Virus record (IMG/VR): IMGVR_UViG_3300023119_000035
Span: 1-53,599 of that record
Direction: 5' to 3' (one strand)
Length of the DNA: 53,599 bases
Origin: a virus
Shown here: positions 1-53,599 of the stretch, piece after piece
Numbering within the stretch: the stretch's first letter is position 1
Layout: each line of letters starts with the position of its first letter
Notes under the pieces: generated by a model
What the model was told of the DNA's origin: nothing
Seen by the model: only the letters and a program-made list of their open reading frames with translations
Database searches by the model: none
Made by a program: the position numbers and the translations under genes

Positions 1-3000
1 CTGGTGGAGGTGATAAAACATCAACAGCAAAAGCAGTTGCAATTCTTGAAAACAATAAAGTTAGAACAAATAAAACTGAACTTAAATTTGATAGAATTGG
101 CTCAACAGGTATTATTGCTGATGAAGAATACGTTGATACATATACCGCTAAGTCAGGACAAGTTGTTTATAAACTAACATACTTGCCTACGTTAGATAAA
201 AGAGATTTTGTTATCAGTGTGAATAATGAAGCAATTTTTGTTGAAAACTTTGATGTAAGCATTGAAACATTAACTGATAAAACTTATAAAAAACAAGTTG
301 GCCATGTTGTATTAAAAACATTGCCAAAAGAGCGTTCAACAGTCACAATTACATATAAGAAAAATGTAAAACTAATGAACGCTATTGATAGAATTAATTA
401 TTTCTATGAACCAACAGCAGGTATGCCTGGTAAAGATCCGGCACAATTAATGTATGGTATCGAATATCCGGGCGTTAAAGTACAAGGTTTAGACTTTGGT
501 GTTAGTGTTGGGTGGGACGGCCTTCCATGGTTTAGTCATGGTTGGGATACGTTCTCAGGAGGCAACACAGATTATGCTTTCCGTGCAGACGGAGTTGCAA
601 CATCGTTTACATTACCTTATGCACCTAAACAGGATGAAAAGATTAACGTTTATTTTGATGGTGTAAGGCAAGATCCAAATAACACTCCAACTATTGTTGG
701 CGACGGGAACACAACAGCATTTACTTTAAATGCAACACCAGCAGATGGTGTGTTGGTAGTATTCCGTCCAGAAGATTCAGATGGTAGTGTTGTTCCAACA
801 GATGTAAACAACTTAGACACAATTATACAAGGTGGTAATTTATCTTATAGTACTGCAACTGGACAAACACCAGAAGAAATTAGTTTACAAGGCGACGGGT
901 TTGTCACACCAGATACGTCACACGCACCTGAAGAAGTTGTACCAGGTCAAATATTTGATTCGCTGGCTATGAAAGTTTATAATGCTCCAGCAGATGGTTC
1001 TCCAATTATTGACATTACAAGACATTGGGGAGATGGAAGTGAAACTGAGTTTACGTTTAACAAATATCCCGGAACAACAGACAGTATTATAGTCACAGTA
1101 GGGCCTAGTAATCCTACACCAACAGATACTGCAACAAGATCAAGTTCTTATAAAGTTTTAGGAACTGACTACACTGTTGACTATGCTAATAAAAAAATTA
1201 CACTTACATCAGCACCAACTGATGGACAGTTAGTCACAATTACAACTTTAAATGTTGGCGGTAGCGAGATACTTGAAAAAGAAGATTATGTTGACTCAGG
1301 TGATAGTACTATTGAGTTTGTTTTAACAAGTAAGTACGAAGATGTTAAAAGTGCGTTTGTCACAGTTAATGGTGTAAAACAAGACTATGCTATCTATGAA
1401 GATACTGATAGTGGTAGTGCAAAAATTGTTTTAACAAATCCTCCAAACGATATGACAGATGCCGTGACACAGATTACTGCATTAAGCGGATTAGAAAAAA
1501 CATACAGTGAAGTAGTCACAGACGTACACGAAGTACAAAGCAACGACGGTCTTACATATGACTTATCTCAGGTACCTGGAAATATTGAACCGTTCCATGC
1601 AATGGTAGTAGTTGAAGCAAATGGTAGAAGATTGAGAGCACCAGACACAATTTATTATGTTGCTAACGGAGTGACTCTAGATTATCTAGCAAGTCAAGAT
1701 CCAGAGTATCCAGCATTTAGTTTGGCACTTGGTGAATTAGAAGTTCATCAGAACGGTGTTAGACTTGAACCAATTTCAGATTATCAGTTTAATACTGCAA
1801 CAAACCTTGTCACTTTCTATCAAGGTAGATTACAAGCAGGCGATGTAATTGCAATCACAGTATTACGTGGTCATGATTATGAAATTAGAAAACACGATGA
1901 TGACGATAGTTCAAATGCAGGATATATCAAAATTATTAACAACAGTGCAGAAGATAGTACCGGAGTTGGTGAAGGAACAATTCTTAAAATTACAAGTTTC
2001 ACAAATCACGATGCTAACCTAATGCGTAAAGAAGTATTTGCAGGAAATACAGGCGGAAATTATAAGTTAAGCAGAAAAGCAATTGATGTTGCATATGTTT
2101 GGGTAGAGTTGAATAATATTCCTCTTGTAGCAGATGCAGATTACAAAATTTTAGATGATGGATATACCGTTTATATTGACAACAAGTTTTCACAAAAATC
2201 AACTGATAGAGTAGTAATAACTTCGTTTAGTGAAGATAGAACACACGACGGTATTGGATTTACTATTTTTGAAGATATGCTTAACAGACATCACTTTAAG
2301 AGAATTAGTAAACAAGATACTACTGTGTTAACTACAAAATTATTGTTAGGTGATACAGAAATTTCTGTACAAGACGCAAGTTTCTTTGATACGCCAAGTC
2401 CAGAAAAACGTGTTCCTGGCGTAATATTTGTTGGTAAAGAAAGAATAGAATTTTACAAAATTAACGGTAATAAGTTATCACAGATAACAAGAGGTACACT
2501 TGGTACAGGAATTGCTGAACATCCAGTTGGAACACAGGTGTTTGATGCAGGACCAACACAAACTGTACCATATAAAGAATCATTAAGCGTATATGAAATA
2601 ATTGTACGTGATGGATTACCAAACGGTAAATCAGTACACGTTTTGGAAACAATTAACTTCTCAGGAAGTGTTAATGCACACGATCAAGTAGAAGTTTATG
2701 TAGGGGGCAGAAAACTACAAAAACCAACAGTTTCTGCTAATCCAATTACAAAACACGATCCATCTATCGCTTATGATAGTGAAGAAACAAACAGCCTAGG
2801 TGTTGCTAGTGATGTAGTTCAACTACCAGAATTTACTATTGAACCAGTTGAAGATAGTACAGCAAAAGGCTATTATAAACTAATATTAAGGGACGAACCA
2901 GAGAACGGAACCGAGATTAAAGTGGTGCAAAAGCAGGGTCATGTATGGTATACAGCAGGTGTTAGCACTGCATCTAACGGTGTCACACTACAAAGAGCAG

Positions 3001-3068
3001 AATCTCCGCAGGCTAATTTCTTGCTAGAGAGGTCCTCTGGTTTACCTATAATAAATATTAAGGAATAG
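1..3068 (+). CDS. Large virion structural (tail/baseplate fibre) protein, 5' end outside window
   Basis: The reading frame is open from base 3 and has no stop before 3068, so the gene begins left of the window. The TTG at 183 is an internal codon, not a start. The visible 1,021 codons are beta-rich and rich in Thr, Val, Asp and Gly. They contain repeated units of the type 'V..NGV.Q....Y...' followed by 'ITLTSAPTDGQLVTI', as in fibrous phage structural proteins. The C-terminus ends with a short conserved-looking tail (NFLLERSSGLPI). It lies 3 bp upstream of another virion gene and heads the tail block, so a tail, neck or baseplate role is inferred. The exact homologue is not recognised. Confidence 0.7.
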   Translation, partial: GGGDKTSTAKAVAILENNKVRTNKTELKFDRIGSTGIIADEEYVDTYTAKSGQVVYKLTYLPTLDKRDFVISVNNEAIFVENFDVSIETLTDKTYKKQVGHVVLKTLPKERSTVTITYKKNVKLMNAIDRINYFYEPTAGMPGKDPAQLMYGIEYPGVKVQGLDFGVSVGWDGLPWFSHGWDTFSGGNTDYAFRADGVATSFTLPYAPKQDEKINVYFDGVRQDPNNTPTIVGDGNTTAFTLNATPADGVLVVFRPEDSDGSVVPTDVNNLDTIIQGGNLSYSTATGQTPEEISLQGDGFVTPDTSHAPEEVVPGQIFDSLAMKVYNAPADGSPIIDITRHWGDGSETEFTFNKYPGTTDSIIVTVGPSNPTPTDTATRSSSYKVLGTDYTVDYANKKITLTSAPTDGQLVTITTLNVGGSEILEKEDYVDSGDSTIEFVLTSKYEDVKSAFVTVNGVKQDYAIYEDTDSGSAKIVLTNPPNDMTDAVTQITALSGLEKTYSEVVTDVHEVQSNDGLTYDLSQVPGNIEPFHAMVVVEANGRRLRAPDTIYYVANGVTLDYLASQDPEYPAFSLALGELEVHQNGVRLEPISDYQFNTATNLVTFYQGRLQAGDVIAITVLRGHDYEIRKHDDDDSSNAGYIKIINNSAEDSTGVGEGTILKITSFTNHDANLMRKEVFAGNTGGNYKLSRKAIDVAYVWVELNNIPLVADADYKILDDGYTVYIDNKFSQKSTDRVVITSFSEDRTHDGIGFTIFEDMLNRHHFKRISKQDTTVLTTKLLLGDTEISVQDASFFDTPSPEKRVPGVIFVGKERIEFYKINGNKLSQITRGTLGTGIAEHPVGTQVFDAGPTQTVPYKESLSVYEIIVRDGLPNGKSVHVLETINFSGSVNAHDQVEVYVGGRKLQKPTVSANPITKHDPSIAYDSEETNSLGVASDVVQLPEFTIEPVEDSTAKGYYKLILRDEPENGTEIKVVQKQGHVWYTAGVSTASNGVTLQRAESPQANFLLERSSGLPIINIKE
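3050..3057 (+). promoter_or_regulatory. Possible T4-type late promoter (AATAAATA)
   Basis: The octamer AATAAATA matches the T4-like late consensus NATAAATA. It lies at the end of the preceding gene, 15 bases before the ATG at 3072. A purine-rich AAGGAA serves as ribosome binding site between them. In an AT-rich genome an isolated match is weak evidence. Confidence 0.4.
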
Positions 3069-3071
3069 ACA

Positions 3072-3731
3072 ATGTCAAACGAGGATAAAAAGTTGGAACA
3101 AATGCCAAAAGAAAACAAAAAACCAAATGAAAATACAGGTGTATTAATGGAAGGCCACATTAAGATCTTTGATCCAAAAAGTGGAGAAATACTAGTGAAT
3201 AAGCGTAATGCTATTCATTACGAAAACATGAGTATTTCACTAGCAGAATCACTTGGAAATGAAGGGCGTGGAAACATCGTTGAAATGGCATTTGGCAATG
3301 GTGGAACAACAGTAGATCCAACAGGAATTATCACTTATTTGACTCCAAATAATACAGGCGTTAATGCTTCATTGTACAATCAAACATACTATAAAACAGT
3401 TGATGATAACAATGTTAACAACACAGATCCTGCAAGAAACTTCATCGAAACACGTCATACCTTAGGTACAACATATACAGACATTTTAGTAAGTTGTTTA
3501 TTAGACTACGGTGAACCAACAGGACAACAGGCATTTGATAACAGCACAAACTTAGATGGTAATTTTGTTTTTGACGAACTAGGTTTAAGAGCATACAGCA
3601 CCGAAGGTGCTAATGAAGGCAGACTTCTAACACACGTAATTTTCCACCCTGTACAAAAGTCACTAAACAGACTTATACAGATTGATTACACAGTTAGAAT
3701 ACAGAGTTTAACTAACTTGAGCGAGAATTAA
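3072..3731 (+). CDS. Conserved virion structural protein, 219 aa
   Basis: This 219-aa protein starts at an ATG behind AAGGAATAG. The first 20 residues are charged (Lys/Glu/Asn). The core then has a pattern I associate with a structural protein of T4-like marine phages: 'GHIKIFD...GEIL..KRNAIH', then 'IVEMAFGNGGT' and a Gly/Asn-rich stretch, then 'FDELGLRAYS'. It sits between the large structural protein and the first fibre paralogue, 3 bp from each neighbour, so it is almost certainly in the same late operon. Its position in the virion is not known; adaptor or baseplate-fibre connector is a guess from context. Confidence 0.65.
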   Translation: MSNEDKKLEQMPKENKKPNENTGVLMEGHIKIFDPKSGEILVNKRNAIHYENMSISLAESLGNEGRGNIVEMAFGNGGTTVDPTGIITYLTPNNTGVNASLYNQTYYKTVDDNNVNNTDPARNFIETRHTLGTTYTDILVSCLLDYGEPTGQQAFDNSTNLDGNFVFDELGLRAYSTEGANEGRLLTHVIFHPVQKSLNRLIQIDYTVRIQSLTNLSEN

Positions 3732-3734
3732 TAG

Positions 3735-7567: not shown

Positions 7568-9910
7568 ATGCCATATACTATTAACAGAACAGACGGAACA
7601 ACGTTAGTCACACTAGCAGATGGTGTAGTTGATACAACTACGGACCTACAACTAGTTGGTCGTAATGTTGCTGGATACGGTGAAATACAAAATGAGAATT
7701 TTGTTAAATTATTAGAAAATTTTGCTTCAACTACTAAACCACCTAAGGCGCAAGTAGGTCAAGTATGGTTTGATAAAACTGTAAACACACTTCGTCCTGC
7801 TGTTTTTGATGGTGTAGAGTGGAGACAGGTTGGATTATTAGAAGTTTCTGATCTAGAACCAAGCAATAGAAAAGAAGGTGACCTTTGGTGGGACTCAGAT
7901 AACAATCAATTATATGCTTGGACAGCAGACGGCAATGAACATATTCTAGTTGGACCACAAGATTTAAAAGGTTATGAATTTACGCAATGGCGTAGTATTC
8001 TTTTAACTGATGATCAAGGAACAAAACATCCTGTAATGGCAGGATATATTCATAACGTAATATATGCGATTGTTGCAGATACAGAATTTACTATTGATCA
8101 AGCAGTCACACCAGTACCTAACTTTACAAAATGTTATAGAGGCACAACATTAAAAGGAACTAATTCAAACGGTGTAAGCACAGACACAAAACATCACGGT
8201 ACTGCTACTGATGCAGACAGATTAGTAGGCAAAGCCGGCGACACTTATGCTAATAGATTAGAAAATGAAACTATTGCAGGTGTTTACAGTTTCCAAAACA
8301 ATAATGGTATTAATGTTGGTCCTAATGATGAACTAAAAATTAATGTTGATAGTGTAAGTGGTAATGCAGGAATCAATAACGAAACAAATGATGTATTATC
8401 ATTTGGTGTAAACTATACAGGCAGTGGTGCAGACAAGACAGTTTTTTATATTGAAGGTAAAGATGTAAAACCTTATGCAGACAATGAAGTAAACTTAGGT
8501 GCACCTACAATGAAATATAGAAACATCTACGCAGATGCTATATTTTCAAACGTAGTTGGTGATGCTTTAGGTAATTTTAGTGGTACACTTACAGGTAGTG
8601 TTAACGGTAATGTAAGCGGAAACGTCACAGGAAACGTCACAGGTAATACAACAGGTACTGTAAATGCAACTGGCGGCAAGATTGTATTAGATAATGATAG
8701 AGTTATTGCTTTAGTAGATGCAGGACAAGACGGTGTATCTGGAACATACGAAGGTTTCTTAGATGGAACATCAAGATATGTACTTGACGGTATGTATAGA
8801 TCAAACAACCAAACAATTAGCGGTACTAAAACATTTACAGCAACACAAGTTTTTAATGCGGCAGTTAATGTAAACCATACGTTAAGTGCAGACAACGTTA
8901 ATATTACCGAAGGTACTATTGGTAGCAATGGAAATACAACACTTTTACAATATGTAAAAGTTGATAATTCAAATATTGAAGATACTAACTTAGTTAGGGT
9001 TGTGATTGATGATGGTTCAAGAATTGAAAACAGTGCGTTAGGTACAGTAGGTATTCTTTCAAATGTAAAATCTACTAAATTTACTGATGCAAATAACAAG
9101 TCTTTTAAATTTATTTCAGATGACGGAACGTTTAACAGTGCTGATAACGATACTGTTGTCACTCAATTAGCAATTAAACAGTATGTAGATGAAAAAGTTG
9201 GCGCTATTCCAAAAGATTTAACATTCCATTTAGATACTAGAGATATGAATCTAGATGCAGTTAAAGCACAACTTGAAAGACTTGCTCCTGCAACACAATA
9301 TTCTGCAGGTACTAAAGCAAGAATCTTAGGATCACATTACTTTTCAAGTTTACCTTCAGGACAGTTCTATCGTAGATTTGGAGTATTCAGTGGTATAAGG
9401 TATGGTATTGGTTTTATTGGCGGTCGAGCATACAGTTATGTAGGTGTAAAAGCAAATGTCACAGATTTAATTAATGCTAAAAGTGCAATTACAGGATATG
9501 AATTTGTTAAAAAAGGAATTGGTGTTCCAACAACACAACTTAGTAATGTCACCGCAGATCCGTTCTTAGATGATTTTGCGGATTCTTATTGGATTACAAC
9601 TGACAGAGGACTAACACAAAATCAAGCAGACTATATTGGTCTTCCACAAGGTGTTGGTGCAAGGGTTCTTGTTATTCAGGATGGTGTTATAGTAGGATAC
9701 GGATTTGACCCATCGGCTGTTTTATTAGACGGTATTAAATCAGATACTTTACTAGGTCGCCAAACTTATACTGGAAATGACTATGTAGTTGAATGGTTCC
9801 AACTAGGAGGAATTTTTAGTGGAGATCCTAACACACAGTTTAGTACATACAGTTATGATATAACTAAAACTATTTTAAGTGGTAGTTGGGAATTTGTAGG
9901 ATATTTTTAA
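7568..9910 (+). CDS. Tail fibre paralogue 3, largest of the four
   Basis: This 780-aa protein starts at an ATG behind AAGGATAAG. The N-terminus repeats the family module ('LVGRNVAGYGE', 'ENFVKLLENFASTTKP', 'GQVWFDK', 'GDLWWDS...LYAW'). A pattern of 'GNVSGNVTGNVTGNTTGT' around residues 340-360 is a collagen-like low-complexity shaft segment that is shared at DNA level with the fourth paralogue. After 'TQLAIKQYVDEKVGA' the C-terminal ~230 residues form a distinct aromatic-rich tip ('FYRRFGVFSGIRYGIGFIGG'). The stop overlaps the ATG of the next gene (TAATG). A receptor-binding role is inferred from family and position. Confidence 0.75.
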   Translation: MPYTINRTDGTTLVTLADGVVDTTTDLQLVGRNVAGYGEIQNENFVKLLENFASTTKPPKAQVGQVWFDKTVNTLRPAVFDGVEWRQVGLLEVSDLEPSNRKEGDLWWDSDNNQLYAWTADGNEHILVGPQDLKGYEFTQWRSILLTDDQGTKHPVMAGYIHNVIYAIVADTEFTIDQAVTPVPNFTKCYRGTTLKGTNSNGVSTDTKHHGTATDADRLVGKAGDTYANRLENETIAGVYSFQNNNGINVGPNDELKINVDSVSGNAGINNETNDVLSFGVNYTGSGADKTVFYIEGKDVKPYADNEVNLGAPTMKYRNIYADAIFSNVVGDALGNFSGTLTGSVNGNVSGNVTGNVTGNTTGTVNATGGKIVLDNDRVIALVDAGQDGVSGTYEGFLDGTSRYVLDGMYRSNNQTISGTKTFTATQVFNAAVNVNHTLSADNVNITEGTIGSNGNTTLLQYVKVDNSNIEDTNLVRVVIDDGSRIENSALGTVGILSNVKSTKFTDANNKSFKFISDDGTFNSADNDTVVTQLAIKQYVDEKVGAIPKDLTFHLDTRDMNLDAVKAQLERLAPATQYSAGTKARILGSHYFSSLPSGQFYRRFGVFSGIRYGIGFIGGRAYSYVGVKANVTDLINAKSAITGYEFVKKGIGVPTTQLSNVTADPFLDDFADSYWITTDRGLTQNQADYIGLPQGVGARVLVIQDGVIVGYGFDPSAVLLDGIKSDTLLGRQTYTGNDYVVEWFQLGGIFSGDPNTQFSTYSYDITKTILSGSWEFVGYF
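8624..8655 (+). repeat. 32-bp perfect direct repeat, copy 1 (fibre paralogue 3)
   Basis: Bases 8624-8655 are identical to 11883-11914 in the fourth fibre gene. They encode a Gly-Asn-Val-Thr-Gly repeat. Identity at synonymous positions over 32 bp suggests recent exchange or selection for recombination between fibre genes. The unit is itself internally repetitive. Confidence 0.8.
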
Positions 9911-23388: not shown

Positions 23389-24282
23389 TCAGGTGCCCCA
23401 GGCGTTGCCGAAGATGTCGACGTGTAGTCTGGGTGTATAGCGCCAACCTCGCTCCATTGCCAATGTTGCGACTCCTCTAGTGTTGAGTTGGTATTCTTCC
23501 GACCTACCCCCAAGCGGCATAACATAGACTGGAACATCGATTCCTTCGCTACGGTACGCTTCAACGGCTTTGGAAACTTCATCCACATCTTCTTTGGTAG
23601 CCACAACAAACTTGAAATACATACTACTATTAGGTACATCGTAGTACTGCCTAGCAATATCAGGCTTGATAGCAGTATCCCAAGGCTCTCCGCTAACGGA
23701 AAGTTTTGGACTGCACGACCAAGTGATATGAAATGATCTTTCGTTGTCGAGCCACTCTCTGAAATCATCTCTAAGAGTTTGTGTTGTGTTTGTTTCAAAC
23801 GTGACATTTTTTAAGTCCTCCATACGAGGGTGTTTAAATAGATCCATGTATAACCTCTGCCACCCTAGCAAAGGTTCACCACCAGTTAAAATAAAATGAA
23901 CATCTTGTCCATTATCCATTGTCCACTTACCTTGTGGAGTAAGACCTAATACATAATCAACTACTTCGTCAACTGTATGGTCTTTCATATATTTTTTAAA
24001 TTCAGGATATATACTTGCATACGTATCACAGCCTGTGTGAACAATAGGCAAATCCTCGAACTTATTTATCTTGTCTAAAATACCGTCATCTAGCAATGCT
24101 TTAACTTCTGGATTATATTTAATACCTTGTTCTAACTTCTCTGCTCTGTTAGGATGCTTGTCTAAACCAAAGTTCATACAACGAAAATTACAACCAAAGG
24201 TACGTAAAAAGACGGAAGGTACACCTACAAAGCGACCTTCTCCTTGCACACTATAAAATGCTTCACTATATCTTAATTTCAT
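23389..24282 (-). CDS. queE: 7-carboxy-7-deazaguanine synthase QueE
   Basis: This 297-aa radical SAM enzyme converts carboxy-tetrahydropterin to 7-carboxy-7-deazaguanine. The start 'YSEAFYSVQGEGRFVGVPSV' is the standard QueE N-terminus. 'LTGGEPLLGW' is the SAM-binding GGE motif, and 'HVDIFGNAWGT' is a typical QueE end. The cluster motif reads C31-N-F-R-C35-M-N-F38: the third Cys of CxxxCxxC is replaced by Phe, and a Cys at 85 in 'VHTGCDTYAS' may take its place. I associate this arrangement with phage QueE. A consensus promoter and AGGAG lie directly upstream. It works with FolE, QueD and DpdA elsewhere in the window. Confidence 0.9.
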   Translation of the reverse strand: MKLRYSEAFYSVQGEGRFVGVPSVFLRTFGCNFRCMNFGLDKHPNRAEKLEQGIKYNPEVKALLDDGILDKINKFEDLPIVHTGCDTYASIYPEFKKYMKDHTVDEVVDYVLGLTPQGKWTMDNGQDVHFILTGGEPLLGWQRLYMDLFKHPRMEDLKNVTFETNTTQTLRDDFREWLDNERSFHITWSCSPKLSVSGEPWDTAIKPDIARQYYDVPNSSMYFKFVVATKEDVDEVSKAVEAYRSEGIDVPVYVMPLGGRSEEYQLNTRGVATLAMERGWRYTPRLHVDIFGNAWGT

Positions 24283-28393: not shown

Positions 28394-29080
28394 TTACCTC
28401 GGAGCAAATTCCTGTTGTAATTTAATATTATCCATAAACTCTTTTTTAGTTCCTGGATCATCTTTAAAACTACCTTTTAGTACAGTTGTTTGTGTAAGTG
28501 AACTATGTGCCATAATGCCACGGTTCTCACAACAACCGTGTGTTGCTTGAATGTAAACACCTAAGTGTTTTGCATCTGTAGCCTTTTCAATTTCACGTGC
28601 AATATCATTTGCAAGTTCTTCTTGTAGTGTACCACGTCTAGCACACCATTGTGCAATGCGTGTATATTTAGAAAGTCCAATAACTTTACCATTAGGAATA
28701 ACACCAATGTATGCTACACCAGTCACTGGTTGGTGGTGATGTGAACAAACACTTTTAAGTTCAGAACGAACTACAAGCATACCTTTATATGCATCTTCGC
28801 CGTCGTTTGGAAATGCAGTTGCTGGCGGAATAGTATCATAACGACCTTGCATAAGTTCATTGTAATACATTTTAGCAAGTCGTCGTGCTGTACCTTGTGA
28901 GTTAGGATCGTTATGACGATCAATAATTAGTGCATCTAGTACACCTTCAAACTTTTCAGCGGCTTCATTAATTAATTCTTCTTTTTCACCATCTTGGATA
29001 AAAGCAGAAATATTGTCGCCTGCCCAATATCGTTTGTTTGCTTCTTTTAATCTTTGCGTTATTTCAGCATATTTTTTCAT
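28394..29080 (-). CDS. folE: GTP cyclohydrolase I FolE
   Basis: This 228-aa enzyme makes dihydroneopterin triphosphate from GTP, the first step of both folate and 7-deazaguanine synthesis. The zinc and active-site motifs are 'KSVCSHHHQPVTGVAYIG' (Cys-His) and 'THGCCENRGIM'. 'KVIGLSKYTRIAQWCARR' is the family's central signature. Together with queD, queE and dpdA it builds deazaguanine for DNA. It precedes the DDIPF gene by 2 bp and follows the glycosyltransferase gene by 14 bp. Confidence 0.95.
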   Translation of the reverse strand: MKKYAEITQRLKEANKRYWAGDNISAFIQDGEKEELINEAAEKFEGVLDALIIDRHNDPNSQGTARRLAKMYYNELMQGRYDTIPPATAFPNDGEDAYKGMLVVRSELKSVCSHHHQPVTGVAYIGVIPNGKVIGLSKYTRIAQWCARRGTLQEELANDIAREIEKATDAKHLGVYIQATHGCCENRGIMAHSSLTQTTVLKGSFKDDPGTKKEFMDNIKLQQEFAPR

Positions 29081-29094: not shown

Positions 29095-30213
29095 TTAAGA
29101 CGTGGATGTCTTTTCATTATATAAGTTTACAGTCTTTTTAATATTATTGCAACTAAAATAATCATCATTTAGAAAATTAACTAGTCTATCTAATGCAACT
29201 TCATGTTTTTTAAAGTCATTCATTACCCAATGAATTTTTTCAATTATCTTATCTTTGTTTGCAATATAACTATCCCATGATTCAGTCCATTCACTAGGGT
29301 ATTTGAAATAGTCATCATACATTTCTGTATAACTTAATCTATCAGGTATAAGTGGAAACGCATTTACAATAGCACCTTCGTATGCACTGATACCTAAAGT
29401 TTCTTGTAGGTTAGCACTAAAGACCATTTTTGCTTCACCTAACAAATTATGATATTCAACTTTGCTTAGTCTTTGATCTTGACAAACTACAAATTCATAA
29501 TCACTTTGTAGTTCTTCTTTTAAATCTCTAAAAATTTCTGGTTGTTTTTCAGGAGCAACTCTATGAGGGAAAAGAATTAAGTTTTTCTTTTTCATTCCTT
29601 TATAAGGATATAGTGTGTTCTTAAGATATTCCATAGGCCAACCTGATCTTACAATTTTTTTATCTTTAATGTAAGAATCGTTAGCACAATTCATATCAAC
29701 ACCTAACAACGTTTCACAAAACATCTTAATATGAAAGTCACTAGCAAAATAGTTATGATCAAAAGCATGGAAAAAACTTTTTTCTGCGTGTCTTACCCAT
29801 GGTTTATCTCCAACTAATCTTCCTAAGAAATCTGCAGGATCATAACTGCCGGCGTGCCATAATCCGTGTGTTATGACATCAATGCCTAACAGTTCTGCCA
29901 TATACTTTACATTAAGTATGCCAGGATGCCACGCATCTGTAAACAGTATATGATCCCCAGATTTAATTTTGCCTTTAGTAAAGGCTTTTGCAATTTTCTC
30001 TATCTGAGTTGATTTGTAAATGTTAGTACCACCAAAGTTTAAAAACGCACCTGGTGTAGTTGCATCTGGAATATCGTCACTACCTTCTACAACTTCAACT
30101 TCAATTGGATTAAACAATGATCCTTTAGAAAGAATTTTAGGTACGTGAACTTTCCATTCACTTGTGTATCTAGTTTCAACGCTTTCTAAATCTACTAACC
30201 AAATCTTACTCAT
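29095..30213 (-). CDS. GT-B glycosyltransferase-like protein, 372 aa
   Basis: The protein looks like a GT4/GT-B glycosyltransferase: an N-terminal domain with 'HILFTDAWHPGILNVKYMAE' and 'DVITHGLWHAGSYDP', then a C-terminal domain with 'NLILFPHRVAPEKQPEIFRD' and the donor-binding E-x7-E region 'NLQETLGISAYEGAIVNAFP'. It lies between folE and queD in the deazaguanine region. T4 uses GT-B enzymes to glucosylate modified DNA bases, so sugar transfer onto a modified base is a reasonable hypothesis; protein or host-surface glycosylation is the alternative. Confidence 0.7.
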   Translation of the reverse strand: MSKIWLVDLESVETRYTSEWKVHVPKILSKGSLFNPIEVEVVEGSDDIPDATTPGAFLNFGGTNIYKSTQIEKIAKAFTKGKIKSGDHILFTDAWHPGILNVKYMAELLGIDVITHGLWHAGSYDPADFLGRLVGDKPWVRHAEKSFFHAFDHNYFASDFHIKMFCETLLGVDMNCANDSYIKDKKIVRSGWPMEYLKNTLYPYKGMKKKNLILFPHRVAPEKQPEIFRDLKEELQSDYEFVVCQDQRLSKVEYHNLLGEAKMVFSANLQETLGISAYEGAIVNAFPLIPDRLSYTEMYDDYFKYPSEWTESWDSYIANKDKIIEKIHWVMNDFKKHEVALDRLVNFLNDDYFSCNNIKKTVNLYNEKTSTS

Positions 30214-30449: not shown

Positions 30450-30860
30450 TTAATATTTTGCGTACTCGATGTGGGCACCGTTTTCTCCATCTTCACTAAC
30501 GTCGATGTGAACTTCTCTGCCCGGGTGTTTAGCAATAATCTGGTTGTATAGATCATCGCAAATCATTTCACAACTCTTATAATCTAGTTCAAGGGTCTTC
30601 TCCTCGTAAAGTTTTTCTAACCAACGTTTAAATTGAATAAATTCGATATCACGATCGTTGTGTGTCACAGTAATACCGACTTTGAAATGGAATATGTGTC
30701 TGTGGGGATATCCCAAAAATGAAACATCATATTCATCACCTGTTGCAAGACTAGGATCATCTAGTGCCGCAGGATACTTGTGGATACCTTCCTTACGGAA
30801 AGTCACCCAAATCATACGTTTTGCAGTTCGCATGATTTTTTCGTGTGTTTCTTGAGCCAT
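30450..30860 (-). CDS. queD: QueD-like 6-pyruvoyl-tetrahydropterin synthase family protein
   Basis: This protein converts dihydroneopterin triphosphate to carboxy-tetrahydropterin in the deazaguanine pathway. 'WVTFRKEGIHKYPAALDDP' and 'LGYPHRHIFHFKVGITVTHN' give the His ligand cluster in an altered form seen in phage QueD-like proteins, and 'DVSEDGENGAHIEY' carries the conserved Glu near the end. The open frame reaches 30893, but the promoter's start point falls near 30887, so translation cannot start there; AAGGA before the ATG at 30860 decides the start (136 aa). It has its own perfect promoter. Confidence 0.75.
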   Translation of the reverse strand: MAQETHEKIMRTAKRMIWVTFRKEGIHKYPAALDDPSLATGDEYDVSFLGYPHRHIFHFKVGITVTHNDRDIEFIQFKRWLEKLYEEKTLELDYKSCEMICDDLYNQIIAKHPGREVHIDVSEDGENGAHIEYAKY

Positions 30861-30893
30861 TGCTTCCTTCATCATGTTATCAGTTATACTCAT

Positions 30894-31427: not shown

Positions 31428-31609
31428 TTTGTTAGCCTATCAATTTGATCTTTAATATAAAGTTTTGTTTTCTTTAATTTTAATAAAAGTGACTTATGAC
31501 CAAAGTCTCTATATATACTACGCTCTTTTTCTAACTCGTCAACCTTTTTTGAATAGTATTCGTGTTCTTTGGTTAACTTTTTTACAGTTTTGTTTTTTAT
31601 TTTTGACAT
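31424..31609 (-). CDS. DUF465-like small coiled-coil protein, 61 aa
   Basis: The pattern 'HEYYSKKVDELEKERSIYRD' followed by 'HKSLLLKLKKTKLYIKDQID' matches the short DUF465/YdcH-type coiled coil (H..L..LKK.KL.LKD.I). Function is unknown in any member. The ATG overlaps the dpdA stop (TAATG) and its stop overlaps the next start, so it is translated with dpdA. Confidence 0.65.
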   Translation of the reverse strand: MSKIKNKTVKKLTKEHEYYSKKVDELEKERSIYRDFGHKSLLLKLKKTKLYIKDQIDRLTK

Positions 31610-33066
31610 TATGCCTCCTCAAATAAGTTCGCATATTGCGTACTTGCGTTTACAGTTTTTTTACCCGTTGCTCCCCTAGTGCCGATAATTGACATCCAGA
31701 ATCTACTAAACTCTTCTATGATCGCATTCGCTTCGTCTCTGTTGTCAGTTGCAAATATCGCTTCCACAACATCTTTAAAAAATAACCTGTCAAAACGTTC
31801 TTCGACAAGCATCGCTGGAATTCTACCTGCGTCATATTCTCTGTTGGCTTCTTGTACTGCATTAATGTGACTCCATACGTTATGACCCATTTGGATCGCA
31901 TAAGAAAAACTATCCCATGATGTTTTTCCTTCTTTGCCTATTTTATTTAGGTCGCCTGGCGCATAGATACAAATATCTTTTGCACTTAGTCCTTGTGTAA
32001 TTGGCGAATCTTTAAAACTAGTGTGTTTGCCTTCACGTACAAATGCTTGACCAAATGGTGTTGTATCAGTTGCTAAAGCCTTGTCGTCAATGCTGGGTAC
32101 CATTCTGTATACCCATTTACTTCTGTCTTGTGTTTCAAGTTCACAATAGATTTGACCATTTGCTGTTGCTAGGAACGGACTAGCACAGTCAAATGTAATC
32201 GTAAAGTTTTCATTGTGATACTTGCGAACTGCTCTTTGAATATCAGTTAAGAGCGTTGCCCACTCTAGTTTACTTGTGCCTAAGAAGTGCATAAAGTCAT
32301 GTATTCCTTTTTCAAGCAATCCATCAAAACGTAATGCTACTAATCTTTTAAGAACAAGGTGTACGTCACACATATTTTGTCCACCCATCGACCATCCATT
32401 AAAGTGTGTGTCTGGATATTTCTTAGGATCACAGTAGTCCTTCATCTGCTGATACCAATCTTCTGCATCAGCATGATTTTCACCTTGTAGTACGTTTAAG
32501 AATTTACAAGCACCTGTACGATTCTTCATAAAGTAGTCGTTGTTAATGCGTGTGGCATTTACTGCTTCTTGATAAGTTGTAATGCCTGTTGCTTTTTGAC
32601 CTGCTTCAGATCTAGATACCCAAGCAGGAATATCAAGGATCATACCATAGTCCATATAAGCATCCATCCACGCAAGAACTTGCTCACGTTTCTTTTGTGC
32701 TTTAGGACAGTTAGGATCTTTCCAATCACCTTCCCATACGCCTTTACCAATCTGGAAACCACCTGAATCACCTAACAGCCAACTATTCTCACGATCACGT
32801 TCACGCACCATAAGTTCTTTAGGTGCGTCCTTGTTTATATCAAGTTCTGCGTGTCCTGCCGAATATAATGTCCAATGATATTGAAAGATACCTTTTTGAC
32901 GATTAAGCCAATTAAGACCTTCCATATCGTTATTAGGAAAAGGAATACGTGACTTATCTACATATTCTTCGCGACGTTGCTTACCAATAAACGTAGCATA
33001 GAAGCCACTAAGTGCCGGAAGATATATTGCGTAGTCCTTTTGTTCTGCTGTTAAGTCAGTTCTCAA
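31609..33066 (-). CDS. dpdA: DpdA-like 7-deazaguanine DNA transglycosylase, 485 aa
   Basis: This protein resembles tRNA-guanine transglycosylase and its DNA counterpart DpdA, which swaps guanine in DNA for a 7-deazaguanine base. Key segments are 'WLLGDSGGFQIGKG' (the DSGGFQ catalytic motif, Asp near 98), 'CKFLNVLQGENHADAEDWY', 'HFNGWSMGGQNMCD' and 'FMHFLGTSKLEWATLLTDI'. It starts with TTG, behind AGGAG at a proper distance. FolE, QueD and QueE are nearby and would supply the base. Confirmation would need mass analysis of the DNA; the alternative, a tRNA target, is less likely in this phage context. Confidence 0.85.
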   Translation of the reverse strand: MRTDLTAEQKDYAIYLPALSGFYATFIGKQRREEYVDKSRIPFPNNDMEGLNWLNRQKGIFQYHWTLYSAGHAELDINKDAPKELMVRERDRENSWLLGDSGGFQIGKGVWEGDWKDPNCPKAQKKREQVLAWMDAYMDYGMILDIPAWVSRSEAGQKATGITTYQEAVNATRINNDYFMKNRTGACKFLNVLQGENHADAEDWYQQMKDYCDPKKYPDTHFNGWSMGGQNMCDVHLVLKRLVALRFDGLLEKGIHDFMHFLGTSKLEWATLLTDIQRAVRKYHNENFTITFDCASPFLATANGQIYCELETQDRSKWVYRMVPSIDDKALATDTTPFGQAFVREGKHTSFKDSPITQGLSAKDICIYAPGDLNKIGKEGKTSWDSFSYAIQMGHNVWSHINAVQEANREYDAGRIPAMLVEERFDRLFFKDVVEAIFATDNRDEANAIIEEFSRFWMSIIGTRGATGKKTVNASTQYANLFEEA

Positions 33067-33831: not shown

Positions 33832-33860
33832 ATTATACTTAAAAAATCATTCAAAGTCAA
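33832..33860 (-). promoter_or_regulatory. Sigma70-type promoter for the clamp gene
   Basis: TTGACT (33855-33860), 17 bp, TATAAT (33832-33837), read leftwards, within the last codons and stop of the polymerase gene. The leader is about 17 bases and contains GGAG. It lets the clamp be made independently of the polymerase. Confidence 0.75.
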
Positions 33861-36519
33861 ATAAATTGTTGAATGTATTCTTCTGTTCGGTTGATTTAAT
33901 ATCCCAATCCAAAACGCCTAACAAGTTGCCTAGTTTGTTATCAATAATAACTGATTCCATTTCGTCATCGTTAAACGGAAGTTCTTGAAACCAGGGTGGT
34001 ATTCTTAGTTCGTCTGTAGGATATGCAACCGAGGTATATCCCATTGGATTGTTCTTTAGTTTACAAACGATAACTTTCATACCATCAACGATATTCATTG
34101 AATAGTTGTCACCGTTCATCTCCTTTAGTTTGTTCCAGTTAATACTTGCTCTTACGTGACCAGGCATATTAACTTTACCAAATTTTCTTTCTTTAGCAAG
34201 ATAGTCTGTGATGTTGTTTGCACGTTTTGGAGAACCCTTTTCCCAACCAGGTCTTGCTTTAAATTGTGTGCGGAAGTCTGTAATTTTATCAAGAATTTCT
34301 GGTTCTTGGGCACCAGTTAGCACAGCCAATAATATCTCACTTAAAAAGTCCTGCATAAACACAGGAGTATCACTACGTTTAAGATCAAGACCCATTGCTT
34401 TTACTTTACCTGGTTTACCGTCAACGTCCATTCTTGCACCTTCATTATCATAGATAAGAATTGCATAACGTTTCTTTGTGATGAATAATCCTTTTTCACC
34501 AACAACTTCTCTACCAGCGGCAATAACACCTGTGCTTCTTGGTTTAGGACAATGAAACGCATCACTCATAAACTGTGGAAACGATTTGTTTGCTTCGTCA
34601 CAAATTTGATCATATAGTGCAATGATACTATCTTTATCCCACGGAATATCGCCTTTTTCAATTTCAGGACGTAAACTTGTGTAAGCACTAAAATAACAAG
34701 AGTCAGTATCACCGTAAATAATTGCTTTGCCTACGTGATCGTAATCACCTGTAATAATTTCATTAACTCTTGATGACATATGTTTAACAATGGCTCTACC
34801 TGTTAGTGTAGTACTCTGCCCAATACGTGGATCAAAAAAGCGACAACCAGGATTAAGAATAGCACCATAAAGAGAGTTAAGATTAATCTTCTTAACCAAT
34901 TGTCGTTTATCCCAAAATGCTTCTTCAACTTTATTTCCTGCTTCTTGTGCTTGGCGTTTCTTTGCCTGCATTTCTTTACGTTCTGCATACCAACGCTTTA
35001 ACAGTCCTGGAATAATACCATCATATTCTGTAGTAAAGATAGTACCGTTAGCACTTAACATCCACGGCTGATTACTTTCAAATATTAATCTATAAACTTC
35101 TGCCGCACTCATTACATCTTCTTCACCGTTTTCCCATACAACAGTAATTTGTTTGTCTTTACGTTCTTCCATGACAAACTCATATTCAAGACTTCCAAAG
35201 CGACCTTCCCACGCTGACGCAAATGACTTTTTCTTAAGAGTCATTTCATTACGTACCATTTCTTCAGTATATTCTGGCTTCAGTTGTCCTACAACAGTTG
35301 CTGGATCCATATTAAGTGATCTAATAACAGATGGATACAGTGAGTTCAAGTCCATTGAGCCGATCCAATCGTGCAATCCTTTTTTAGGATATGCAACATA
35401 CGCACCAGCCGCAGGCTCTGAACCTGGCTCTCTGTGTACTCTATTAGGAACAACAAAACCTCTATGGTGTGCTTCGTTAATAATTGCTTGTTCTGTCACA
35501 GCAACAGCACCCATTGTTGTTGGCAACAATACAGTGTTTGCGTGTGCAAGTTCGTTTGCAAGATCAATAAACTTTAACTTTTTGTCAAGTTTATCAAGTA
35601 GTGCAACGTCTTGCCTGTTATATTCGATGAATGTTTTAAAGTCATTGTTGTATAACTGATCAAGTGTGCCTTCGTAAACAGTTTTACGTTCGCCTACTTC
35701 CATTTCACCAATAGCATCTAGTCGATATGTGTGGCGTTCTTCGTATGTGTACTTACGATATAATTCTAAACTATCTAAGTGTTGTCTTCCTACAAGGTCG
35801 TATGTTTCTTGCTCACGGCCAAACTTTTCATAAGTTCTTTTCTTTGGATATTGATCCCACAAGCAAAATCGCTTTGTATCTTCTTTTGAAAGTACACGAG
35901 TAATACGGTTAACTGTGTAAGGAATATCATAACCTTCACTGTTCCAACCACTTAAGATATCTGCGTCTTGTATTAAGTCTAAGAACGTGTCAAGCATTTC
36001 TGCTTCACTTTCAAACAAGTGTGTATTATCAAAATCTTTTACAGCAAATTTAGCATCTTCCATGCTCATACCTTTTGGAGGAAGTGCTAATGTAATAAGA
36101 CTATTCAACCATTGTAAGTGTACTGTAATTGCTGTAATGGCTGTAAATGGATCTTCAGGTGAACTATAACCACGTTCAGGATCAAAGTCAACCTCAATAT
36201 CGAAAAACGCAACGTGTAGTGTTGGAGCATCGATACCTAAATAATTTTCTTCAAGCAATCGATATACAGGATTAACATCTGCTTCAAATAGTCCGCGATG
36301 TTTGTTAATTTTTTGTTCTTTAAGGAAGTCTTTCCAACTTTTACATACTACTCTACTAACTGTATCGCCCATAGTAGACTTGTGCTTACCACGAGGATCT
36401 TTATAATAGAATTGATATCTTGCTGGATATTCTCGGAAATCTCTTTCGCCGTTTTTATTACGTTCAACGACTTTGATAATATCTTTGTCTCTGTCCCACA
36501 GAGCATCTACATAACTCAT
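33847..36519 (-). CDS. Family B DNA polymerase (gp43-like)
   Basis: This 890-aa replicative polymerase has a 3'-5' exonuclease with 'AFFDIEVDFDPERG' (Exo I, near residue 107), 'DILSGWNSEGYDIPYTV' (Exo II) and 'YNRQDVALLDKL' (Exo III). The polymerase motifs are 'GSMDLNSLYPSVIRSL' (A), 'KKINLNSLYGAILN' (B) and 'IYGDTDSCYFS' (C, catalytic Asp pair). Length agrees with T4 gp43 (898 aa). The C-terminus 'NTFNNLFDFE' looks like a clamp-binding peptide. A hairpin directly before its ribosome site may be a translational operator. The start is an ATG behind CAGGAG. Confidence 0.97.
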   Translation of the reverse strand: MSYVDALWDRDKDIIKVVERNKNGERDFREYPARYQFYYKDPRGKHKSTMGDTVSRVVCKSWKDFLKEQKINKHRGLFEADVNPVYRLLEENYLGIDAPTLHVAFFDIEVDFDPERGYSSPEDPFTAITAITVHLQWLNSLITLALPPKGMSMEDAKFAVKDFDNTHLFESEAEMLDTFLDLIQDADILSGWNSEGYDIPYTVNRITRVLSKEDTKRFCLWDQYPKKRTYEKFGREQETYDLVGRQHLDSLELYRKYTYEERHTYRLDAIGEMEVGERKTVYEGTLDQLYNNDFKTFIEYNRQDVALLDKLDKKLKFIDLANELAHANTVLLPTTMGAVAVTEQAIINEAHHRGFVVPNRVHREPGSEPAAGAYVAYPKKGLHDWIGSMDLNSLYPSVIRSLNMDPATVVGQLKPEYTEEMVRNEMTLKKKSFASAWEGRFGSLEYEFVMEERKDKQITVVWENGEEDVMSAAEVYRLIFESNQPWMLSANGTIFTTEYDGIIPGLLKRWYAERKEMQAKKRQAQEAGNKVEEAFWDKRQLVKKINLNSLYGAILNPGCRFFDPRIGQSTTLTGRAIVKHMSSRVNEIITGDYDHVGKAIIYGDTDSCYFSAYTSLRPEIEKGDIPWDKDSIIALYDQICDEANKSFPQFMSDAFHCPKPRSTGVIAAGREVVGEKGLFITKKRYAILIYDNEGARMDVDGKPGKVKAMGLDLKRSDTPVFMQDFLSEILLAVLTGAQEPEILDKITDFRTQFKARPGWEKGSPKRANNITDYLAKERKFGKVNMPGHVRASINWNKLKEMNGDNYSMNIVDGMKVIVCKLKNNPMGYTSVAYPTDELRIPPWFQELPFNDDEMESVIIDNKLGNLLGVLDWDIKSTEQKNTFNNLFDFE

Positions 36520-36605: not shown

Positions 36606-36875
36606 CTACTTTGCCTTGCGTTTTTTTCTGCCTTTTTTCTTTTTTTCTGGATCAGGTATTCCGTTTTCTTTTCTATATCTTTCTTTTAACTCTGCATCAG
36701 TCCAGTGTGGTCTTCTATCTAATCCACCAGCACCTTGTGCCGCACCGGGTTCTAACTTTTGTATTTTACCGCCTTTAGCAAGAAATTCTTGCATTAACTT
36801 ATCTAATTTTTCTTGCTGTTCTTCTTTAGAGGGGCCATCTTTACCTTCGTAGTTCCTTCTAATGTCTATTGCCAT
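36606..36875 (-). CDS. Small conserved basic protein, 89 aa
   Basis: The protein has a helical middle 'QQEKLDKLMQEFLAKGGKIQ', then 'DRRPHWTDAELKERYRKENG' and a very basic end (KKKKGRKKRKAK), suggesting nucleic-acid binding. Similar proteins occur beside gp43 in marine T4-like phages as I recall, with no known function. AAGGAG lies before the ATG, and a strong promoter is 20 bases further upstream. Confidence 0.6.
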   Translation of the reverse strand: MAIDIRRNYEGKDGPSKEEQQEKLDKLMQEFLAKGGKIQKLEPGAAQGAGGLDRRPHWTDAELKERYRKENGIPDPEKKKKGRKKRKAK

Positions 36876-46945: not shown

Positions 46946-46967
46946 ATTGATCCTTTATAAAGCAGTA

Positions 46968-46987: not shown

Positions 46988-47002
46988 ATACCTCAAGTTT
47001 AA

Positions 47003-47272: not shown

Positions 47273-47297
47273 GTTTTCTCCTATTGACATTTAATAA

Positions 47298-47321: not shown

Positions 47322-47330
47322 ACATATATT

Positions 47331-47359
47331 ATAATAGCAAAGAATGTGTATAAAGTCAA
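47331..47359 (-). promoter_or_regulatory. Sigma70-type early promoter for the winged-helix gene
   Basis: TTGACT (47354-47359), 17 bp, TATTAT (47331-47336), read leftwards, in the 121-base gap after the 98-aa gene. An overlapping TATAAT lies 2 bases nearer the gene with 19-bp spacing. Confidence 0.75.
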
Positions 47360-47393
47360 CTACAACTGTTGGTTAATTTTACCAAAATGACTA

Positions 47394-48082: not shown

Positions 48083-48093
48083 AGTACTTTTAT

Positions 48094-51333: not shown

Positions 51334-51850
51334 AGTATTGCATTCCTTTTGATAATTTTTGTTCTAATTTTTTAGCCTTCTTAACAGCCATGTCCCATTT
51401 AAGTTTACTTGTTCTATCTTTATATGTAATACCTAACAAATGATCTAGTTCATGTAGATAGCATCTAGCATCGTAGTCTTCAATTCTACCCATTTGCTTT
51501 TCACCTTTTTCATTATAGAACTCTGCAACGATCCACTTAGGTCTACGCAGTTGAACAATAATATTAGGAAAACTTAAACACCCTTCGTAATCTAAAACAG
51601 TTTCTTCACTTGCTTGTAATACTTTAGGGTTAACAAAAATAGCACTTTTATCAGGAACGTGTTTACTACCCATAACAAATAATTGTGCATCAAGACCTAC
51701 TTGATTTGCACTTAAACCAACACCGTCTTTTTCGTACATAATTTCCAACATTTGTTTTTTAGTTTCTACTAAATCAAATGGCGGATTTTCAAAATCAAAT
51801 TCTTTAACTTGTTTATTTAAAAACTCGTCTGGATAATAAATTAAGTTCAT
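51326..51850 (-). CDS. def: Peptide deformylase
   Basis: This 174-aa metalloenzyme removes the N-formyl group from new proteins. All three family motifs are present: 'DGVGLSANQVGLDAQLFV' (motif 1), 'DYEGCLSFPNIIVQLRRP' (motif 2, Cys ligand) and 'DARCYLHELDHLLGITYKD' (motif 3, HExxH). Phage deformylases help mature phage or host photosystem proteins in cyanophages; here no photosynthesis gene is seen, so the purpose is unclear. It lies between dnaJ (1 bp) and clpA (overlap). Confidence 0.95.
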   Translation of the reverse strand: MNLIYYPDEFLNKQVKEFDFENPPFDLVETKKQMLEIMYEKDGVGLSANQVGLDAQLFVMGSKHVPDKSAIFVNPKVLQASEETVLDYEGCLSFPNIIVQLRRPKWIVAEFYNEKGEKQMGRIEDYDARCYLHELDHLLGITYKDRTSKLKWDMAVKKAKKLEQKLSKGMQYYA

Positions 51851-51851
51851 A

Positions 51852-52709
51852 TTATTTTAAGTTTCCCTTTATTTTAGTTATCATATCTATCTGGTCATCA
51901 GTTAGTTCTTTTGGTATAGAAGCCTTTACTTTTACGTAAAGATTTCCTTGATGTGGACCACCGTTTACATCAGGCATACCAAGTCCTTTCATACTAAACA
52001 TTGTATCAGGCTGTGTACCTGGACGTATTGATAAACTGTAAGTATGACCATCTAGGTGTTTTATGTTTACCTTAGTACCTAGTATAAGGTCAAAGACATC
52101 AACTGTCAAGTCCTTTTGAAGATCAAAACCATCACGTCGATAGCCTTGATAATCTCCAATTTGAATAGTAATATGAAGATCTCCCGGTGGAACACCTTTT
52201 ATACTACTATCACCCAAACCACGTAGTCTTATAGTTTGTCCGTTATCAACACCTTTTGGTATTTTAACGTCAATTGTTTTTGAACCACCATTACTTAATG
52301 GAAACTGTACAGTGACATCACCGCCATTAAATGCTTGTGTTAAGGTAATTCTTAATCCAGTCCTTACGTTGCTATTTCTGTTTTGTCTACGTCTTTGGAA
52401 TCCACCTGGACCAAAAATAATATCTTCACCTTCAAATCCACCCCCAAACATCTGTGAAAACATATCTTGGAAGTTTCCTGTGTTAAATCCATATTGACCT
52501 TGTTGTTGTGGATCAGAAGTTCCAAACTGATCGTACATTGCTTTCTTTTCTGGATCTGTTAATGTTTGGTAAGCCTCGTTTAATTCAGTAAACATTTTAT
52601 GATCACCGCCTTTGTCAGGATGGTGCTTTGCCGCTAGTTTACGGAATGCAGTTTTAATTTCTTTTTCGGAGGCATTACGAGAAACACCTAAACGTTCATA
52701 ATAGTCCAT
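51852..52709 (-). CDS. dnaJ: DnaJ/CbpA-type co-chaperone
   Basis: The J-domain spans the first ~65 residues ('DYYERLGVSRNASEKEIKTA', 'KHHPDKGGDHKMFTELNEAY' with HPD), followed by a Gly/Phe-rich linker with 'FSQMFGGGFEGEDIIFGPGG' and a C-terminal substrate-binding region ('VKIPKGVDNGQTIRLRGLGD'). The Cys-rich zinc finger of classical DnaJ is absent, so it is CbpA-like (285 aa). It stimulates host DnaK. The M-D-Y-Y start fixes the first codon, which lies only 7 bases from the -10 box: the mRNA would be leaderless. Confidence 0.95.
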   Translation of the reverse strand: MDYYERLGVSRNASEKEIKTAFRKLAAKHHPDKGGDHKMFTELNEAYQTLTDPEKKAMYDQFGTSDPQQQGQYGFNTGNFQDMFSQMFGGGFEGEDIIFGPGGFQRRRQNRNSNVRTGLRITLTQAFNGGDVTVQFPLSNGGSKTIDVKIPKGVDNGQTIRLRGLGDSSIKGVPPGDLHITIQIGDYQGYRRDGFDLQKDLTVDVFDLILGTKVNIKHLDGHTYSLSIRPGTQPDTMFSMKGLGMPDVNGGPHQGNLYVKVKASIPKELTDDQIDMITKIKGNLK

Positions 52710-52715
52710 ATTAGT

Positions 52716-52744
52716 ATTATATACTTAGTTTAGGTGTTTGTCAA
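52716..52744 (-). promoter_or_regulatory. Perfect sigma70 consensus promoter for dnaJ
   Basis: TTGACA (52739-52744), 17 bp, TATAAT (52716-52721), read leftwards. The ATG of dnaJ begins at 52709, 6 bases after the -10, at the expected transcription start. It would drive dnaJ, def and clpA. Confidence 0.85.
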
Positions 52745-52747
52745 GTA

Positions 52748-53113
52748 TTACTTGTCAGACTTTTTACTTGATCCAGTGTATAAACCAAACCAAGCCGCAC
52801 CAGCACCAACTACGATACTAACCAAACCTGATTGTTCCATAGTAGGATTTGGAAGAGCCATATACCAAACTACAACTTTGTATAGTAAAATAATATATGT
52901 TGAAATAAAGAATCTTGGAAAAATTCTCCAACTATCAACAGCACGGGCCATATGAATCCATTTTGCGTATGGATTAACACCTAAATCTTTTGCTGAAGCA
53001 TCAACATCAAGTTCTAAGTTAATTTTACGTTTTGTTGTATCAGAACCAACTTTTACATCAACAGTTGCATTGCCGTCAGCAATTTTTTTCTTTTCAGTAG
53101 CAAGATCGCTCAT
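52748..53113 (-). CDS. Putative holin-like membrane protein, 121 aa
   Basis: A hydrophilic N-terminal ~70 residues is followed by two membrane segments ('FFISTYIILLYKVVVWYMAL' and 'SGLVSIVVGAGAAWFGLYTG') and a short basic end (SSKKSDK), as in small holin-like proteins of marine phages. Two lipoprotein genes of possible spanin type lie directly upstream, so a lysis cassette is inferred. GAGGGG lies before the ATG. A late-type promoter is 26 bases further upstream. It could instead be a general membrane protein. Confidence 0.6.
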   Translation of the reverse strand: MSDLATEKKKIADGNATVDVKVGSDTTKRKINLELDVDASAKDLGVNPYAKWIHMARAVDSWRIFPRFFISTYIILLYKVVVWYMALPNPTMEQSGLVSIVVGAGAAWFGLYTGSSKKSDK

Positions 53114-53138
53114 TATGTTCCCCTCTAAATTATATGTG

Positions 53139-53146
53139 TATTTATT
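53139..53146 (-). promoter_or_regulatory. Possible late-type promoter (AATAAATA)
   Basis: AATAAATA, read leftwards, overlaps the stop of the 54-aa lipoprotein and lies 26 bases before the holin-like start. It fits a late promoter for the lysis region, but one match in AT-rich DNA is weak. Confidence 0.45.
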
Positions 53147-53309
53147 AAAAACTACAACTAATCTCGCCCCGAGGAGTTATTTTTTCTTGGATTGTTTCAC
53201 CCTTGTTAATGTCTATATCAGCGCCAGGTTTAGCGGTACAAGTAGATTTAGCAGAACAACTACTTAGGATCAGAGCCGTCAGTAGTAGAATCGCCTTCGT
53301 AATATTCAC
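53145..53309 (-). CDS. Small lipoprotein overlapping an upstream lipoprotein, 54 aa
   Basis: The frame begins at a GTG (53309) behind GAGAAG and overlaps the last 50 bases of the preceding lipoprotein in another frame. The product 'MNITKAILLLTALILSSCSA' has a clear signal with lipobox L-S-S-C. The mature part has Cys residues at 24 and near the end and a charged segment 'ADIDINKGETIQEKITPRG'. An overlapping second lipoprotein recalls the Rz/Rz1 arrangement of spanins, but the partner is also a lipoprotein. A start at the TTG 12 bases earlier is possible. Confidence 0.65.
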   Translation of the reverse strand: MNITKAILLLTALILSSCSAKSTCTAKPGADIDINKGETIQEKITPRGEISCSF

Positions 53310-53599
53310 GATACTTCTCAATTATTAGTTGTTGCTTAATCATGTATGCACGTATTTGTGCAAAGTTTTTAGCAAGTGTTTCGTAGTCGTCATCGCTTAA
53401 ACCAAACAGCACAGGATCTTTACCTTGCTCTTTCATTTTAGCAAACACTTCTTCTGCGTTCTCACTATGGATAATAATGAACTTTAGTTCTTCCATTTTT
53501 GGAGTCGCAGGATTCTCTAGATTCAGAGGTGCTCTTTTAACCTCAGTCTTGAAAATATCTAACTTGGATACCGTACTACAACTAGTAAGGAACGTAGTT
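53260..53599 (-). CDS. Putative spanin-like lipoprotein, 5' end outside window
   Basis: The frame is open to the right edge, so the gene starts beyond the window; a Met at 53496 is internal. Before it the sequence reads 'TFLTSCSTVSKLDIFKTEVK' and 'RAPLNLENPATPKMEEL', i.e. a lipobox (L-T-S-C) followed by the conserved 'K.E..RAPLNL' leader. The mature part 'FIIIHSENAEEVFAKMKEQG' then 'VLFGLSDDDYETLAKNFAQI' ends 'IEKYREYYEGD'. I associate this family with marine phages, where it is thought to be an outer-membrane (spanin-like) lysis component. The periplasmic coil 'RAYMIKQQLIIEKYREYY' supports this. Confidence 0.7.
   Translation of the reverse strand, partial: TTFLTSCSTVSKLDIFKTEVKRAPLNLENPATPKMEELKFIIIHSENAEEVFAKMKEQGKDPVLFGLSDDDYETLAKNFAQIRAYMIKQQLIIEKYREYYEGDSTTDGSDPK

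Follow-up and report, generated by a model that had tools for sequence, protein, structure and literature searches.

The 53,599-bp viral DNA discussed here (IMG/VR record IMGVR_UViG_3300023119_000035, positions 1 to 53,599, hereafter the window) comes from a source described as a large marine bacterial virus. Several short words are missing from both strands of the window over its full length (1..53599). By count, it contains no GTTAC or GTAAC, no AGCT, no RCATGY, no GCAGC or GCTGC, and no GCGC outside of GGCGC or GCGCC. The absence of GTTAC and GTAAC (together GTWAC) is the main subject of this analysis. The same window encodes a family B DNA polymerase and three genes with a predicted role in 7-deazaguanine DNA modification, which bear on how these absences are interpreted.

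GTWAC and other motifs missing from the phage

The complete absence of GTWAC was claimed in a first-pass annotation made from the sequence alone, which proposed an order-3 Markov count, a composition-preserving shuffle and an inspection of related phages as checks. Direct counting gave 0 GTTAC and 0 GTAAC in the window versus 66 GTCAC and 36 GTGAC, where 98 GTWAC sites are expected under an order-3 Markov model and 136 under an order-2 model. The window corresponds, at 99.97% identity, to positions 128272-181867 of a 181,867-bp contig that is a longer record of the same phage; this contig (the 182 kb contig) also has no GTWAC site, with 336 (order 3) or 473 (order 2) expected, and the gap agrees across several independent contigs. 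When synonymous codons were permuted within each of 122 genes of the 182 kb contig, leaving the proteins and the per-gene codon usage unchanged, GTWAC occurred 333.5±10.8 times and never fewer than 297 times in 300 shuffles, versus 0 in the real genes (z = -31). Under the same test, the counts of GATC, GANTC, CTAG, and GTAC in these genes equal or exceed expectation.

The details of the first-pass annotation were borne out as well, including the abundance of GTCAC and GTGAC. All 182 Val-Thr pairs are written with GTC (130) or GTG (52) and none with GTT or GTA, yet GTT and GTA make up 85% of all Val codons. Where an AGY Ser codon precedes Tyr, the pair is AGT-TAT in 47 of 47 cases. The annotation had argued that this is not a codon habit, and the absence of GTWAC in all reading frames together with the codon shuffles agrees with that view. 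A literature search on GTWAC found no paper carrying that word.

GTWAC is one of several purged motifs in this phage, a set that the first-pass annotation overlooked. In the window, the observed and expected counts are 0/120 for AGCT, 0/56 for RCATGY, 0/48 for GCWGC, and 0/22 for WGCGCW. On the 182 kb contig they are 0/422 for AGCT, 0/193 for RCATGY, 0/178 for GCWGC, and 0/112 for GCGC without a flanking G or C (HGCGCD), and codon shuffling of that contig placed these motifs at z from -8 to -28. A scan for bipartite Type I-like motifs gave nothing convincing.

Relatives of the phage and the distribution of purged motifs

Relatives were gathered with the DNA polymerase (33847..36519, minus strand; Pfam PF00136/PF03104) as a marker. 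Many IMG/VR contigs carry a polymerase 85-100% identical to that of the window, and the nearest named relatives are Sinorhizobium phage Phosso (52%) and Agrobacterium phage Atu_ph07 (46%). The polymerase and the ClpA, ClpP, and DnaJ genes, with the terminase, gp32-like, and RecA-like genes that the long contig adds, identify a large T4-like myovirus, and it is a relative of these two phages. The named relatives and a short tail-fibre match weakly suggest an alphaproteobacterial host; the match, to Roseobacter phage CRP-13, covers an 82-bp patch of a tail-fibre gene (8582-8663) at 78% identity. When genome contigs were scanned with the polymerase in search of the host, no relative was found.

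The motifs were surveyed in 93 loci of the phage family (L and G numbers denote family loci and contigs). The GTWAC purge is specific to lineages. GTWAC is zero only in the lineage of the window and, independently, in L184/G020, where 26.6 kb is available, the counts are 0/43 for GTWAC and 34/26 for GTSAC, and the surrounding clade does not purge AGCT or GCWGC. The sister phage G006, whose polymerase is 91% identical and whose alignable DNA is 81% identical, has 165 GTWAC sites with 162 expected. Of its sites, 57 can be aligned to the phage of the window and none is kept there, whereas similar control words are retained at a rate of 40-52%. Most of the lost sites now read GTSAC, GTWAT, or another single-base variant such as ATTAC, and we propose that the sites were removed by mostly silent point mutations.

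The other motifs also come and go among relatives. AGCT and GCWGC are zero everywhere except in one separate clade (L155, L170, L179-L181, and L184), and RCATGY is zero or nearly zero in 47 of the 93 loci. One clade has no CTAG at all, with counts of 0/327 in G021 (L280-L287, 156 kb) and 0/167 in G024 (L294-L297); these phages lack CTAG in any flanking context, and other family members are normal. Five loci (L083, L084, and L152-L154) have no ACWGT, that is, ACAGT and ACTGT are missing and ACCGT and ACGGT are present, which parallels GTWAC. L015 lacks CATG in all contexts (0 of ~85 expected), unlike those relatives in which RCATGY alone is missing. The lineages that purge GCN7GC include G005 and G010. 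In the 50 kb stretches of Atu_ph07 and Phosso that were tested, GTWAC, AGCT, GCWGC, and GCGC are not avoided. The 50 kb stretch of Atu_ph07 (L124) is depleted in other motifs, namely CCAGG (1/50), CATG (51/194), and AGATCT (0/28).

Which sites survive depends on the bases around them. In the lineages that avoid GCN7GC, not a single pair has both its GCs outside GGC and GCC, with about 253 expected; a GGC or GCC in just one of the four possible positions brings the counts back to normal or higher (76/40, 77/41, 51/44, and 51/41). For G001, the counts of GCGC are 0/99 without a flanking G or C and 63/88 with one, and those of GCNNGC are 1/67 when unprotected and 122/122 with GGC or GCC, although an outer GGC rescues GCNNGC only partly. 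An outer G or C makes GCGC tolerated in most lineages but not in G005. Thus sites with a GC inside GGC or GCC are spared and other GC-N(0-2,7)-GC sites are gone, which is a new finding. GCWGC is missing whatever its outer flank, and GCSGC is common; the five-base motifs GTWAC, GCWGC, and ACWGT are all purged only with a W center, and their S forms survive. None of the motifs purged in the 93 loci is one whose every instance contains GA or GGC.

A DpdA2-like protein and the preQ0 genes

The window encodes a 485-residue DpdA2-like protein (31609..33066, minus strand), a predicted DNA-guanine transglycosylase with the tRNA-guanine transglycosylase (TGT) fold that carries the motifs DSGGFQ, LQG, and FDCASP. 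These motifs are largely conserved in 32 diverse homologs (DSGGxQ, the G of QG, and D-x-x-S-P). An hhalign comparison with E. coli Tgt gave a weak collinear match (P = 0.0014). An AlphaFold model built from the 32-homolog alignment reached a pLDDT of 87 and a pTM of 0.88; a model that drew on close relatives alone reached a pLDDT of 41 and was uninformative. The top Foldseek matches of the former in the PDB are tRNA-guanine transglycosylases (E 1e-6, probability 1.00, TM about 0.4-0.5). The viral structures matched include a 596-residue protein, which we take to be the homolog in Vibrio phage 2.275.O, a phage protein annotated as a tRNA-guanine transglycosylase, and R9TGF0 of Vibrio phage nt-1, presumably DpdA2. 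In Vibrio phage 2.275.O, the homolog adjoins QueF and a PF02592 transporter. Named phages have homologs that are annotated as hypothetical, and a scan with the homolog of Pseudomonas phage PA5oct found zero contigs.

The 485-residue protein has no significant match in Pfam or PHROG and none to PF01702 or phrog_887 at E up to 10; the PF01702 search was negative, and a comparison with the DpdA of phage CAjan gave no meaningful sequence match. The DpdA2 of Vibrio phage nt-1 was likewise reported to be undetectable from the DpdA of phage 9g (PMC6884629), so the missing profile match is not disqualifying, and the name is kept as DpdA2-like rather than DpdA2.

Two further genes belong to the synthesis of preQ0 by their family matches. 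FolE, the GTP cyclohydrolase I of the first step, is encoded at 28394..29080 (minus strand; Pfam PF01227, 1.8e-40), and a QueE-like radical SAM protein at 23389..24282 (minus strand; phrog_2076, 'QueE-like radical SAM domain', 1.3e-52). QueD is present in relatives and a QueC-like protein in one relative. The latter (L277:1003-1713) is a divergent PP-loop protein with CSGGADS and CGQCWWC motifs that matches PF06508 at the cut-off, and its gene neighbors are radical SAM and aminotransferase-like genes. A 147-residue protein at 30450-30893 was initially taken as QueD-like, but profile comparison did not support this, and the true QueD lies elsewhere in relatives. The DpdA of CAjan has been reported to modify GA and GGC, and DpdA-dependent 7-deazaguanine shields DNA from restriction enzymes (PMC8306585, PMC10002423, PMC6884629).

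Other genes in this phage were noted. An 89-residue protein at 36606-36875 (minus strand) has a SutA RNA-polymerase-binding domain (PF20661, 3e-9) and may be a transcription modifier. A 372-residue protein at 29095-30213 (minus strand) has no significant family match; its homolog in Phosso, likewise close to the polymerase, is annotated as a glycosyltransferase. Elsewhere on the long contig of the phage, a carbamoyltransferase (PF02543; L085:6486-7469, minus strand) adjoins a DnaB helicase, and the region L086:4598-8567 (minus strand) has weak glycosyltransferase and pyruvyltransferase matches and a mannose-phosphate isomerase domain. These carbamoyltransferase, transferase, and isomerase genes possibly serve further modification of the DNA or the surface. 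DNA methyltransferases of the families PF01555, PF02086, and PF00145 are absent from all fragments of the phage family.

Probable restriction, proposed masking, and comparison with known systems

The absence of GTWAC very probably means that a host Type II restriction site has been purged to the last copy, because the motif is palindromic, missing in all frames, limited to certain lineages, lost twice, and replaced by single-base variants. The purge suggested in the first-pass annotation is clearly the best explanation of this pattern. The phage lineage probably met a host enzyme cutting GTNAC or GTWAC in the recent past, after which every site was removed, and the differing purged sets of relatives are consistent with several escapes from host Type II restriction systems of different kinds. 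Type II-like palindromes that switch on and off between lineages agree with a series of host restriction encounters and do not fit mutational bias. Bias in mutation or codon choice, or an artefact of sequencing, is of negligible probability: no supporting evidence was found for it, the synonymous shuffles (z = -31) and the Markov models reject composition, several independent contigs concur, the sister phage has normal counts, and GATC, GANTC, GTAC, and CTAG are not depleted in the same genes. A nuclease of the phage itself that cuts GTWAC and destroys host DNA, with the phage safe through having no sites, would demand just such absolute zero tolerance and would suit a family without methyltransferases of the three main families. 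It is nevertheless improbable, because no gene is exclusive to both GTWAC-free lineages, one of which could be compared over 26.6 kb, and the many lineage-specific motifs would each require a different phage nuclease.

The sparing of some sites may reflect a second layer of protection, a phage-encoded 7-deazaguanine DNA modification that would draw on FolE, the QueE-like protein, and the DpdA2-like protein, with QueD and the QueC-like protein known from relatives. Such a modification would mask sites that hold a suitable G in context, namely GGC and possibly GA or GG. Under this proposal, only the unmaskable sites had to go because the maskable ones were shielded: GTWAC and not GTSAC, GCWGC and not GCSGC, HGCGCD and not GGCGC, and HGC-N2/N7-GCD with the GGC- or GCC-bearing versions kept. 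Base modification and purging would then divide the labor motif by motif, with the DpdA2-like enzyme masking some sites and selection deleting the rest, a scheme that we consider evenly balanced between holding and failing. The masking of GGC-containing sites by a mark predicted to be 7-deazaguanine draws good support from the sparing rule and the genes, and the masking layer as a whole is given even odds. By analogy, the survival of GTSAC may plausibly be put down to a modified GA in GTGAC, which would leave GTWAC as the unmaskable part of GTNAC.

Several observations weigh against masking as a full account. Even CATGA is missing along with the rest of CATG in L015, as is CTAGA in the CTAG-free lineages, so any GA masking is not universal. 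ACGGT is spared with neither GA nor GGC, and GTWAC and ACWGT could therefore be plain W-specific targets; a W-specific enzyme for GTWAC is possible. A general rule that palindromes with GA or GG are spared was rejected, as there was no effect over all other 6-base palindromes in this genome, and neither QueC nor QueD was found in the 182 kb fragment of the phage itself. Separate host systems with literal specificities (GTWAC, GCWGC, RCATGY, AGCT, and others), for which the DpdA-like protein would be irrelevant to sparing, offer a tentative alternative of rather low probability. GCWGC and RCATGY match the specificities of the known enzymes TseI and NspI, respectively, and the purges of AGCT, CTAG, and CATG disregard flanking bases. 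Literal specificities would also have to include HGCGCD, HGCD-N-HGCD pairs at N2 and N7, and W-only GTNAC and ACNGT, which are odd and, to our knowledge, have never been described for any enzyme. The rescue of GCN7GC by a single GGC or GCC at any of four positions also counts against them.

These patterns are a natural archive of recurrent restriction arms races, and as close relatives differ by whole purged motifs, a tree can show where pressure from host restriction arose or lapsed. If masking is true, avoidance patterns in metagenomes would serve as an assay for both DNA modification motifs and unknown host restriction specificities; raw sequence could then suffice, with neither phage nor host at hand, to deduce the modification motif from the contexts that let forbidden sites persist. 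The analysis also adds a large uncharacterised DpdA-like family, found in hundreds of viral contigs, to the 7-deazaguanine field.

The avoidance of restriction sites is long established and has been surveyed systematically in phages by Rusinov et al. in 2018 (PMC6286503). Like the lytic phages of that survey, this double-stranded DNA phage has lost palindromic Type II sites completely. Unlike them, it has at least five motifs at exactly zero in one 182 kb contig, its purged sets change between close relatives, and sparing depends on the GGC or GCC context. Site avoidance as such is well known; the simultaneous zeros in so large a genome, the rapid turnover, and the context-dependent sparing are new. 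The survey found that base modification (cytosine hydroxymethylation) abolishes avoidance (PMC6286503), whereas here the two appear to work together at the level of single sites. Atu_ph07 and Phosso, the nearest named phages by polymerase (46-52%) with genomes of about 470-490 kb, do not avoid GTWAC, AGCT, GCWGC, or GCGC in the 50 kb tested.

The predicted modification system resembles those of DpdA (CAjan and 9g) and DpdA2 (nt-1) in pairing a TGT-fold protein with FolE and QueE, and with QueD and a QueC-like protein in relatives (PMC6884629). It differs from CAjan, 9g, and nt-1 in that the modification is predicted from genes and fold, with QueC and QueD not seen in the phage's own fragment, and the 485-residue protein differs from those of CAjan and E. 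coli in having no significant match to Tgt or CAjan DpdA and being resolved by fold alone. The contexts modified in CAjan, GA and GGC, are the contexts that are spared here.
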